Below are positions 1,908 to 7,905 of a DNA stretch of 7,905 bases, piece after piece. Under the pieces are notes generated by a model. The model saw only the letters and a program-made list of their open reading frames with translations, made no database searches and was not told the DNA's origin. Position numbers and translations under genes: made by a program. The stretch's first letter is position 1. The number at the start of each line of letters is the position of its first letter. The DNA comes from an uncultured Eubacteriales bacterium (GTDB taxonomy: Bacteria > Bacillota_A > Clostridia > Oscillospirales > Oscillospiraceae): assembly GCA_900556015.1 (NCBI GenBank), contig USNH01000036.1, forward strand, positions 1 through 7,905, written 5' to 3'.

Positions 1908-1939
1908 GACCGCAAATCACATTGCAGGAGGAAATGACC

Positions 1940-2215
1940 ATGGATGTTACTTTTTCACCCGCCCTCCGTGTGTACGCGGAGCTGTGGGAGATCGCCGGAC
2001 GGCGACGGGCGGCGGACGCACAGTTCGCGCAGGCGTTGGCACATATCCGCAGCGGCACGCCCGACGCTATGTACGTTATGCTGACGTTTCTGGAAGTGAA
2101 CGGGATACACATGGAGTGTGCCAATGAGGAGGTTGTGGAGGTCGGATTATCCGTTGCCTCCGGCACAATGGACTATGACGTGCTTCTCCAATGGGTGCGC
2201 GACCACAGGAGCTGA
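1940..2215 (+). CDS. Doc/Fic-like protein: C-terminal half only, catalytic motif absent
   Basis: A 91-residue protein starting at ATG 1940, eight bases after AGGAGG (1926-1931); the in-frame ATG at 1934 is too close to it. Residues from about 46 onward (YVMLTFLEVNGI, then an acidic helix and a final LLQWVRDHR) read like the last two helices of Doc 'death-on-curing' toxins, in which this segment directly follows the catalytic HxFxDGNKR motif. Here that motif is missing: the equivalent positions read SGTPDAM. The first 45 residues (basic, GRRRAADAQFAQ) do not look like Doc. No antitoxin gene is recognisable beside it. It may be a decayed toxin, a non-catalytic derivative or a chimera; AMPylation or phosphorylation activity is unlikely. 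The Doc resemblance is from memory of the family, without an alignment. Confidence 0.6.
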   Translation: MDVTFSPALRVYAELWEIAGRRRAADAQFAQALAHIRSGTPDAMYVMLTFLEVNGIHMECANEEVVEVGLSVASGTMDYDVLLQWVRDHRS

Positions 2216-6183: not shown

Positions 6184-7551
6184 TTATTTGCCCACGCAGA
6201 AGCGGGAGAAAATGGTGTCCACCAGGTCGTCCCGGATGTGCCTGCCGTTCAGCTCGCCCAGAGCCTCCAGCGCCGCCTCGCAGTCCGTCAGCACCACGTC
6301 GGGGGTCATGCCGATACGCAGGGCGCTGCGGGCCTCGCCCACGGCGCTGAGCGCCCGGGACACGGCATCCGCCTGGCGGGCGTTGGTCAGCAGCGCGCCC
6401 TGGGCAGGCGTGCCGACAGGAAAGAGGGCGGCGATGGCGTCAGTGAGGGTGTCCAGCCCCAGGTGCTCCGTGGCGGAGACGGAGAGGACGTTATCAAAGC
6501 GGTCTGCCAGCGCGCCGATGTCCAGCCGCCGGGGCAGGTCGCATTTGTTCACCGCCACCAGCAGGTGGGGGACTTGCCGGGCCACAGCGATGGCCTCCTC
6601 GTCCTCCGCCGTCAGGGGGGCGGAGCCGTCCAGCACCAAAATGGCCAGGGACGCCTGCCTGGCGGCGGCACGGCTGCGCTCCACGCCCAGGGCCTCCACG
6701 GTGTCGCCGCCGTCACGGATGCCGGCGGTGTCCGTCAGGCGCAGCAGCACACCGCCCACCGTGACCTTCTCCTCCACCGTGTCGCGGGTCGTGCCGGCGA
6801 TGTCGGTGACGATGGCCCGGTCGTAGCCCAGCAGGGCGTTGAGCAGAGAGGATTTGCCGGCGTTTGGCTTGCCCAGCAGCACCGTGGGCACGCCCCATTT
6901 CATCAGCCGGCCACGGGAGAACCCGGCCAGCAGACCGTCCAGCTCCTGCTGGGCGGTGCGGAGGGTGTCCAGCATCTCCTCACGCTGGAGGTCCTCGATG
7001 TCCTCGTCGGGGTAGTCCACCACGGCGTAGAACCGGGCGGCCATGTCCGTGAGGCCGTCGTAAATGCGGGCGATGGTGCGGCTCAATGCGCCGGAGAGCT
7101 GGCAGGCGGCGTTGTGGGCCTGCTCCGCCGTCTCGGCATCGATGAGGTCCACCACGGCCTCGGCCTGCATCAGATCCAGCTGGCCGCTGAGGAAGGCGCG
7201 GCGGGTAAACTCGCCGCCTGCGGCCTGGCGGCATCCGGCGGCGAACAGGGCGCGAAGGCCGGCATCCAGCACCACCGGGCTGCCGTGACAGTGCAGCTCG
7301 GCGCAGTCCTCGCCGGTGTAGCTGTGAGGGGCGGGGAAGGTGACGCACAGCACGTGGTCGATGACGCGGCCCGCATCGTCCATCAGGTCGCCCAGCACCA
7401 TGGAGCGGGGGCGCTGGGCGGCGGCAGGCTTGCCGTTTTGGGCGCGGAACACCGCGTCCAGCGCGGAGAAGGTCTCCGGGCCGGAGAGGCGGAGGATGCC
7501 GATGGCGCTGGGGGCGTGGCCGGTGGCGATGGCGGCAATGGTGTCGGGCAT
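6184..7551 (-). CDS. mnmE: tRNA uridine-5-carboxymethylaminomethyl modification GTPase MnmE
   Basis: A 455-residue protein (usual length about 450-460). With MnmG it modifies the wobble U34 of certain tRNAs in the cytoplasm. The N-terminal folate-binding domain (about 1-118) starts DTIAAIATG and holds AGGEFTRRAFLSGQLDL (111-127). A helical domain carries an inserted G domain with P-loop GKPNAGKSS (227-235), GTTRD (253-257), DTAG (274-277), NKCD (335-338) and the G5-like SAT. The C-terminal FCVGK (451-455) supplies the family's catalytic cysteine. The ATG at complement 7549-7551 has AAGGAGG eight bases upstream; the open frame extends further, but without coding character. In many Firmicutes mnmG follows mnmE near the origin; here degV-prmA follows instead. 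Confidence 0.97.
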   Translation of the reverse strand: MPDTIAAIATGHAPSAIGILRLSGPETFSALDAVFRAQNGKPAAAQRPRSMVLGDLMDDAGRVIDHVLCVTFPAPHSYTGEDCAELHCHGSPVVLDAGLRALFAAGCRQAAGGEFTRRAFLSGQLDLMQAEAVVDLIDAETAEQAHNAACQLSGALSRTIARIYDGLTDMAARFYAVVDYPDEDIEDLQREEMLDTLRTAQQELDGLLAGFSRGRLMKWGVPTVLLGKPNAGKSSLLNALLGYDRAIVTDIAGTTRDTVEEKVTVGGVLLRLTDTAGIRDGGDTVEALGVERSRAAARQASLAILVLDGSAPLTAEDEEAIAVARQVPHLLVAVNKCDLPRRLDIGALADRFDNVLSVSATEHLGLDTLTDAIAALFPVGTPAQGALLTNARQADAVSRALSAVGEARSALRIGMTPDVVLTDCEAALEALGELNGRHIRDDLVDTIFSRFCVGK

Positions 7552-7580
7552 GGGGGTGGCCTCCTTGGTGGTTTTTCGAT

Positions 7581-7589
7581 AGTATAGCA
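7581..7589 (-). promoter_or_regulatory. Extended -10 promoter of mnmE
   Basis: On the minus strand TGC followed by TATACT (-10 at complement 7581-7586), an extended -10 arrangement about 30 bases before the mnmE ATG. The -35 position (complement 7604-7609) reads TTCCTT, a weak match. A pyrimidine-rich tract lies upstream. Confidence 0.5.
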
Positions 7590-7627
7590 CAGGGAAAGGG
7601 AAAAAGGAAGCGGAGGAAAAGGCGAAA

Positions 7628-7656
7628 TTGACAGCAAAGAAGGAGCCTGTTATAAT
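7628..7656 (+). promoter_or_regulatory. Consensus sigma-A promoter of the small-peptide locus
   Basis: TTGACA (7628-7633), exactly 17 bases, then TATAAT (7651-7656): a perfect consensus promoter, the strongest in the window. Predicted transcript start is near 7663. It diverges from the mnmE promoter. Such a promoter for a 26-codon ORF suggests high constitutive transcription, held in check after transcription. Confidence 0.85.
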
Positions 7657-7665
7657 ATGAAACGG

Positions 7666-7680
7666 GAGAGATCTGCTCTC
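7666..7680 (+). other. Short hairpin at the 5' end of the small-peptide mRNA
   Basis: GAGAG (7666-7670) pairs with CTCTC (7676-7680) around ATCTG. It lies at or within a few bases of the predicted transcript 5' end and could stabilise the mRNA. Confidence 0.4.
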
Positions 7681-7700
7681 AAACAACGGCAGGCGGTTTG

Positions 7701-7727
7701 GCTCACACCACCCGAAAGGGGGTGAGC
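7701..7727 (+). promoter_or_regulatory. 5' UTR hairpin sequestering the Shine-Dalgarno sequence
   Basis: GCTCAC (7701-7706) pairs with GTGAGC (7722-7727). Inside it CCC (7711-7713) pairs with GGG (7718-7720) closed by a GAAA tetraloop. The strand it hides, AAAGGGGGTGA (7715-7725), is a near-perfect complement of the 16S rRNA 3' end and lies just before the ATG at 7730. The fold should restrict ribosome loading until rearranged or processed. Confidence 0.65.
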
Positions 7728-7729
7728 TG

Positions 7730-7810
7730 ATGCGTATTACTTTACATATCGGTATCTATACAGTTACCATTATCGTGAAGAAACGCGAAAACCGCCACTC
7801 TGCCAAGTGA
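7730..7810 (+). CDS. 26-residue hydrophobic/basic peptide, candidate type I toxin
   Basis: ATG at 7730 to TGA at 7808-7810, preceded by a very strong Shine-Dalgarno sequence. The peptide has a hydrophobic, beta-branched segment (ITLHIGIYTVTIIV, residues 3-16) followed by a strongly basic, polar tail (KKRENRHSAK). The segment is short for a classical membrane helix, so membrane association is plausible but not shown. I do not recognise it as Fst, TxpA, BsrG, Ibs, Hok or the usual holin-like toxins. Context makes it look like a toxin: consensus promoter, hidden ribosome binding site, a hairpin spanning the stop codon, and a convergent promoter for an antisense RNA over its 3' end. It could instead be a leader peptide or a non-toxic small protein; the assignment is inference from architecture. 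Confidence 0.65.
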   Translation: MRITLHIGIYTVTIIVKKRENRHSAK

Positions 7811-7874
7811 CGGTTTTCTTAAAACATAAACCTTCATTTAGGAGTTAAACCGCTTGTCAGAGCAGGTTTCTCCT
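7775..7874 (-). ncRNA. Candidate antisense antitoxin RNA (about 95-100 nt)
   Basis: Transcription from the minus-strand -10 at 7881-7886 should start near 7874. The RNA would open with a stem-loop (complement 7841-7873: GGAG/CTCC, AAACC/GGTTT and GCT/AGC arms, CTGACA loop), continue through an AT-rich linker and end at the hairpin at 7787-7818. It would be fully complementary to the last third of the peptide ORF and the sense terminator. This matches the convergent 3'-overlap layout of TxpA/RatA and BsrG/SR4. The 3' end is approximate, and expression is inferred. Confidence 0.5.
7787..7820. terminator. Bidirectional hairpin overlapping the peptide stop codon
   Basis: GAAAACCG (7787-7794) pairs with CGGTTTTC (7811-7818), and CACT (7796-7799) with AGTG (7806-7809), with one C-A mismatch and a CTGCCA loop. 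TTTTCTT follows on the plus strand; the minus strand gives GGTTTTCGCGTTTCTT. The TGA stop lies inside the stem. It can end both the sense mRNA and the convergent antisense RNA. Confidence 0.6.
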
Positions 7875-7883
7875 ACCTTCATT
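7830..7883. repeat. Direct repeat ACCTTCATT in the antisense region
   Basis: ACCTTCATT occurs at 7830-7838 (followed by TAG) and at 7875-7883 (followed by ATAG), 45 bases apart. The second copy overlaps the antisense -10; the first gives a degenerate -10-like sequence. It may mark a duplication within the element. Confidence 0.45.
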
Positions 7884-7905
7884 ATAGCGAACGGGGGCAG
7901 ATTGT
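7881..7905 (-). promoter_or_regulatory. Promoter of the antisense RNA, cut by the window edge
   Basis: A perfect TATAAT on the minus strand (complement 7881-7886). With a 16-base spacer the -35 would occupy complement 7903-7908, of which only the last three bases (ACA) are inside the window; they agree with TTGACA. Confidence 0.55.

Follow-up and report, generated by a model that had tools for sequence, protein, structure and literature searches.

What does a 26-codon ORF do between two promoters that face each other, beside mnmE and at the very end of the window (the whole 7,905-nucleotide stretch of DNA that was analysed)? A preliminary description had read it as a type I toxin-antitoxin locus, a layout now supported by a conserved and selected peptide and by a strongly conserved convergent antisense gene; quite probably, the locus is a type I cassette that combines a silenced basic beta-hairpin peptide with a convergent antisense RNA. 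Its features are as follows, R1 and R2 being models of the antisense RNA and the leader, respectively, built from 27 cassettes:

7628-7656, plus strand: toxin promoter, TTGACA-17-TATAAT, 12 of 12 consensus positions, with TG ahead of the -10.
7662-7729, plus strand: toxin mRNA leader, start placed from the -10; R2 match at 7653-7738, 68.9 bits (the window is part of the model).
7664-7704, plus strand: 5' arm of the putative mRNA clamp, 7664-7679 and 7688-7704, inverted repeats with 33 pairs to 7842-7874.
7706-7724, plus strand: Shine-Dalgarno hairpin CACC-A-CCC-GAAA-GGG-GGTG with GAAA cap, a predicted fold, well conserved in the 27-cassette alignment (A2).
7730-7810, plus strand: candidate toxin ORF, 26 aa, MRITLHIGIYTVTIIVKKRENRHSAK, predicted beta hairpin with a basic tail.
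7787-7818, minus strand: stop-codon hairpin and putative antisense terminator, 14 pairs in a minus-strand terminator scan, with covariation.
7819-7841, no strand assigned: spacer of variable sequence, left single-stranded in the predicted folds of both RNAs, the likely contact segment.
7842-7874, plus strand: 3' arm of the putative mRNA clamp, complementary to the 5' hairpin of the antisense RNA (predicted fold).
7777-7874, minus strand: antisense RNA gene with putative ends; R1 match at 7771-7885, 77.8 bits (the window is part of the model).
7881-7905, minus strand: antisense promoter, with a complete -10 TATAAT (complement of 7881-7886) and a -35 cut by the window end, read from the sequence.

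The perfect toxin promoter, the ORF with its Shine-Dalgarno sequence inside a hairpin, and the convergent TATAAT, which would give an RNA antisense to the 3' end of the ORF, had all been claimed beforehand and are all in place. The three visible bases of the antisense -35 (TGT, 7903-7905) fit TTGACA at a spacing of 16 nt, the relatives having 16-18 nt, and 6500-7905 contains three promoter-like sites scoring at least 9/12, where shuffles lead one to expect 0.2. The idea that a cassette of some 250 bases lies inside the window has to be given up: the element extends beyond base 7905, and the window covers the locus incompletely, because a toxin-strand terminator-like site is found beyond the antisense -10 in 49 of 98 loci (20 of 98 in one shuffle each). 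Since 101 complete loci, counting the window, show the arrangement, with covarying helices, it is not a product of chance. By Pfam, the neighbors on the visible side encode MnmE, DegV, PrmA, a VanW/G5 protein and TrkH; between trkH and the vanW-like gene lies an ORF of about 92 aa (1937-2215, plus strand) with no Pfam match.

The tblastn and covariance-type model search of Clostridia that had been proposed for the cassette did recover relatives, which come from Oscillospiraceae, some Lachnospiraceae, and faecal phage records. At E<=10, tblastn matched one of 72,556 plasmid records, an 860-kb replicon of Vescimonas fastidiosa, in four places, the best of which has no gene listed beneath it (the PLSDB gene table is incomplete). 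Phage records gave no tblastn match to the peptide; a distant blastn search added two faecal phage records, and a DNA pattern search found four viral contigs, along with 22 stretches among 84,980 genomes, 14 of them titled Oscillospiraceae. R1 has matches in all 15 genomes picked for holding a locus (1-18 each, other toxins included), in at least 64 of 200 genomes of the taxonomic family (best 18 candidates per genome scored), and in at least 25 of 291 genomes of the class (best 12 candidates scored), most of the latter weak. A match to mnmE is present in 184 of the 200, and in the loci of the best 20 of these 184 there is no R1 match at E<=0.1 beside it; the cassette is therefore not a fixed neighbor of mnmE.

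Most of the comparisons below draw on 154 distinct cassettes taken from R1 and pattern matches, a non-random sample that favors high R1 scores. A script assigned 100 of them to the toxin family of the window, 26 to other peptides, 22 to a toxin-less or interrupted class, one to a broken class and five to none. After the doubtful ones were read, 101 complete loci (window included) belonged to the family, 28 had the same chassis with another or a broken peptide, 20 had an antisense gene without a working toxin, and five were cut by a contig end or by N. L091 and L093:1501 left the toxin-less class in this step, as a toxin frame is present in both (with a GTG start in L093 and an altered end in L091).

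Is the ORF translated into something that matters? Conservation as a protein, on which the preliminary description had made its reading depend, is seen in the part of the ORF that precedes the stop hairpin: the 44 distinct sequences of the MRI type (codons 2-16) have a dN/dS of 0.086 and the 43 of the MPI type (codons 2-17) one of 0.231, values indicating that the peptide is under strong protein-level selection. Third codon positions are the most variable in the family, and the synonymous excess disappears in shifted frames, both in the MRI type (pS 0.16 and 0.09 vs pN 0.27 and 0.29) and in the MPI type (pS 0.34 and 0.19 vs pN 0.32 and 0.36). The tail, NRHxxK or NRHxGR, is likely constrained as protein and as RNA at once, because it overlaps the antisense terminator.

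That the peptide belongs to a family not previously recognized is borne out by every collection searched. Pfam has no family for the window peptide at E<=10 (Hol_Tox, PF16935, included), NCBIfam and PADLOC no match for two family peptides, and in PHROGs the window peptide matches nothing, while another member reaches E = 0.48; a PDB sequence search gave nothing better than E = 2, Rfam nothing credible at the gathering threshold or at E<=10, and four strings from the peptides are absent from the open-licence literature searched. The expectation of a small hydrophobic toxin like TxpA or BsrG fares less well. Over 90 distinct family peptides, the hydrophobic moment is 0.47 at 170 degrees, the beta-type angle (0.23 when shuffled), and 0.23 at 100 degrees, with a hydropathy of 1.04 (best 18 aa) and a charge of about +4.9; the other toxins on the same chassis (25 distinct peptides, one of which, MDAPRF..., is a wrong frame of L089) have moments of 0.11 and 0.22 at these angles, a hydropathy of 2.28 and a charge of +2.1. 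Mean Chou-Fasman beta propensity is 1.25 in the family and 1.26 in the others, and so does not separate the two groups. AlphaFold2, run on 24 members with the input lengthened by four upstream-encoded residues to meet the minimum length, predicts strands at 4-11 and 14-21 with a mean pLDDT of 84, while a helical-type chassis mate is predicted from its single sequence as one helix over residues 2-29 (pLDDT 90); pTM is low for both (0.37 and 0.47), as expected at 30 residues. The window peptide is thus predicted to be a cationic, amphipathic, two-stranded beta hairpin, and neither hydropathy nor AlphaFold2 finds a hydrophobic transmembrane alpha helix in its family. The membrane type I toxins classified in the available part of one review all have an alpha-helical transmembrane domain (PMC8309996); should the peptide prove toxic in its beta-hairpin form, the class as described there would be widened.

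Quite different peptides share this leader, antisense hairpin and terminator within the ORF, among them MVTYAELFQFC..., MWKKVIIFIICF... and MTTLEILTLL..., with MEYVLAFALVV...IIKK and others as more distant cases. Against Hol_Tox (PF16935; cut-off 23.3 bits) one chassis mate, MNVTYADLFQFC..., reaches 25.8 bits, and a second falls below the cut-off (E = 0.02); the window peptide, by comparison, has a beta pattern and no Pfam match. From the Hol_Tox match it follows that one control device would serve both the beta family and small helical toxins of a kind already known. Type I toxins are close to invisible to protein searches, and a model of the chassis detects their loci in gut Clostridia regardless of which toxin they encode. 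On one 121-kb contig (G015 contig C4; L077, L079, L080, L084, L091), the toxins of six Hol_Tox-like cassettes resemble one another, but the terminator loops and spacers differ.

The convergent RNA, as judged from its promoter, is the best-conserved part of the locus. With the window left out, the antisense promoter averages 11.71/12 and reaches the full score at 76 of 99 complete loci (shuffled control, 7.1/12); the best toxin promoter averages 9.54/12 and is perfect in 7 of 101, the window being among those few. The antisense promoter is the better of the two in 83 loci and the toxin promoter in two. The putative antisense gene, by its sequence, has its own promoter and terminator and is complementary to the toxin mRNA, and its predicted RNA in the window folds at z = -4.7.

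The hairpin across the stop codon, also noted beforehand, is present at 7787-7818, and its chief role appears to belong to the antisense strand. In 27 sequences, 90.4% of its cells are paired and 29 cells show a double change (0 of 500 shuffles for both), and every slide of the hairpin along the alignment leaves less than 44% paired. It exceeds shuffles in three of five covariation measures, the failing ones being pairs with a double change (5 vs 3.6 shuffled, 67/500) and further pair types (7 vs 10.1 shuffled). Following the stem there are on average 4.73 T on the antisense side and 3.61 on the mRNA side, the antisense side being richer in 61 of 93 loci and the mRNA side in 17, and a solitary antisense gene in V. 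fastidiosa (L001, near 2900) has the same hairpin followed by a T run. The T runs and the minus-strand terminator call suggest that the hairpin is chiefly the terminator of the antisense RNA.

The layout first described had no long-range pairing in the mRNA and so overlooked a 5'-3' clamp of 33 predicted pairs. The window mRNA (7662-7900) folds at -98.2 kcal/mol (z = -8.6), with 7664-7704 paired to 7842-7874 and the Shine-Dalgarno hairpin and ORF enclosed; the leader without the 3' part has a different predicted fold. More than 10 clamp pairs form in 92 of 94 folds (mean 25.9), and pairing of the 5' leader with the mRNA 3' region is probably an inactivating clamp. The terminator-like site is seen in only 49 of the 98 loci, and for the rest, as for the window, the full-length mRNA that the clamp needs is itself putative.

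A different possibility is that there is no clamp at all, the covariation being that of the antisense hairpin and its complement, and the leader being alike through an ancestral inverted duplication. The antisense 5' end does fold alone, leader and antisense RNA have similar starts, and half of the loci with divergent stems fail against mixed controls (both beaten in only 19 of 38). Cognate leader and 3' segment nevertheless pair more strongly (-45.7 kcal/mol) than non-cognate ones (-35.6; n = 101, 0 of 5000 permutations) or shuffled segments (-27.0), though kinship among the sequences inflates both the permutation and the shuffle test. Both sides have changed together in L158, L056, L114, L145 and the window despite their different stems, and rewritten stems still pair, over 14 bp in L158, 15 bp in L056 and 16 bp in the window. 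Mismatches in the clamp are more often G.U than A.C (108 vs 37 in 95 loci; G.U ahead in 50, A.C in 17, neither in 28), although non-cognate pairs too have more G.U than A.C (268 vs 148). On this evidence a locus without the clamp seems unlikely.

If the clamp is real, it has parallels. The hok and aapA1 mRNAs are known for 5'-3' pairing, and here too the mRNA 5' end is predicted to pair with the 3' region; to our knowledge there is no sequence relation between hok/Sok or AapA1/IsoA1 and the system in the window. In par of the Enterococcus plasmid pAD1 (Fst/Ldr), as far as the available part of the source describes it, convergent promoters, a Shine-Dalgarno stem-loop and an intramolecular helix concealing the mRNA 5' end are found as here (PMC7472228). 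Both par RNAs cross direct repeats, whereas here it is the leader and the mRNA 3' region that are complementary, and the only candidate for such a repeat in the window is 9 nt long (7830 and 7875) and does not join the two RNA starts. For hok, the portion of the source available describes a 3' processing step of the mRNA that has to precede binding by ribosome or Sok (PMC4147584).

Among 94 loci, the spacer between terminator and clamp arm is where the mRNA is most open in 75 and where the antisense RNA is most open in 61, and the modeled accessibility makes it the likely first contact between them. Near-identical toxins and leaders often bear unrelated antisense spacers. Where ORFs are at least 93% identical, spacers are only 61-68% alike (44 pairs; 46% when shuffled), and tandem copies with identical coding sequence have different spacers in G086 and G171 (in G178 they do not differ). 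This suggested diversifying selection, but a control region, the stretch between the antisense -10 and -35, is equally diverged (0.68 and 0.68 over 18 pairs, 10 of them more alike and 6 less) and gives no separation from drift. The spacer is therefore variable and may decide specificity, while selection for variety is without support.

Taken as a type I system, the cassette might work as follows. A rare mRNA would encode the 26-residue basic peptide, a two-stranded beta hairpin that probably harms the membrane of its own cell or binds a polyanion, membrane damage being the first guess. The nascent full-length message would be silenced in cis, first by the GNRA-capped hairpin holding the Shine-Dalgarno sequence and then by the clamp between leader and 3' region, which would also shield the 5' end from decay. 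The strong convergent promoter would meanwhile yield a transcript some 100 nt long, terminated at the hairpin within the toxin ORF; the single-stranded spacer of this RNA may start pairing with the mRNA, and RNase III would then cut the duplex. Were the antisense gene or its transcription lost, the longer-lived mRNA could be trimmed or refolded and then translated.

Of 149 loci that could be classified, 20 have an antisense gene without a working toxin, and 13 of these have an antisense promoter of at least 11/12. In L109 (1305-1464) a 159-base insert with its own inverted repeat splits the toxin ORF and leaves the antisense gene intact; another such locus, L003, is in a record filed as a faecal phage. 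L155 (534-650) and L056 (621-743) represent one orthologous site in two genomes, with flanks 94-96% identical: L056 has a full cassette, whereas L155 has lost toxin promoter, leader and first codons in a deletion and retains the antisense segment (-35 TTGGCA in L155 vs TTGACA in L056, -10 TAAGAT in both). The idea that solitary antitoxins match toxins elsewhere finds two cases among the 20 in which an intact cassette has nearly the same spacer, namely L056 for L155 and L047 for L063, where L063 1501-1607 and L047 1837-1943, from different genomes, share the whole spacer and differ in the terminator loop. Solitary type I antitoxins are known in orz of E. coli, likewise retained without a toxin; in the available part of that report they are chiefly one antitoxin in one species, with ohsC in two strains as well (PMC11264685), whereas the 20 loci here span several Clostridia genomes and a phage-filed record. 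With an orthologous intact copy at hand for one of them, the role of solitary RNA antitoxins becomes directly testable.

Might the peptide instead be a secreted antimicrobial or signal under antisense control, harmless to its own cell? A charge of about +4.9, an amphipathic beta pattern and no membrane helix would suit a cationic antimicrobial hairpin, but the visible side has no exporter or immunity gene (MnmE, DegV, PrmA, VanW, TrkH), helical peptides, a Hol_Tox member among them, occur on the same chassis, and antisense-only copies are more easily explained by a harmful peptide; the proposal is accordingly improbable. A MITE-like mobile element, with the clamp arms as terminal inverted repeats and the ORF as passenger, would account for up to 18 R1 matches per genome (other toxins included), for tandem copies and for the missing R1 beside mnmE in the best 20 of 184 relatives, yet is very improbable given the conserved antisense promoter and terminator, the low dN/dS and the excess of G.U over A.C mismatches in the repeats (108:37), as pairing in toxin-strand RNA predicts.

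For the type I cassette, then, what is new? Its kind is known. In TxpA/RatA and BsrG/SR4 of Bacillus subtilis the antisense RNA likewise overlaps the 3' end of the mRNA for a small peptide, and the BsrG ribosome binding site lies in structure as here, in the portion of the source at hand (PMC4147584). Judged by profile search and these descriptions, the window system differs from TxpA and BsrG in having no Hol_Tox or other Pfam match and another predicted fold, and from both pairs in its clamp and in the antisense terminator inside the toxin ORF; on kinship with Fst-like or TxpA/BsrG toxins the analysis covered the Pfam and NCBIfam profiles, in which the window peptide has no match. Within the material searched, novelty appears to extend to the toxin family, to the fold predicted for it, to the terminator within the ORF and to how many antisense-only copies there are; from the parts of the sources available, a 5'-3' clamp may also be new to Gram-positive systems. 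Neither beta-hairpin type I toxins nor type I systems of Oscillospiraceae appear, by title or start of abstract, among the open-licence literature matches listed. A wider proposal, offered tentatively, is that these would be the first beta-hairpin type I toxins, on a modular Clostridia chassis that swaps unrelated toxins and retains a single device of clamp and antisense RNA, with solitary antisense genes, many of them with intact promoters, serving in hosts and in at least one phage-filed record as RNA antidotes, each directed by its own spacer, to the toxins of invading or lost elements. In L001, a toxin-less antisense gene (2780-2915) lies directly upstream of two tandem full cassettes, and the whole group stands between a LysR-type regulator and nadE.
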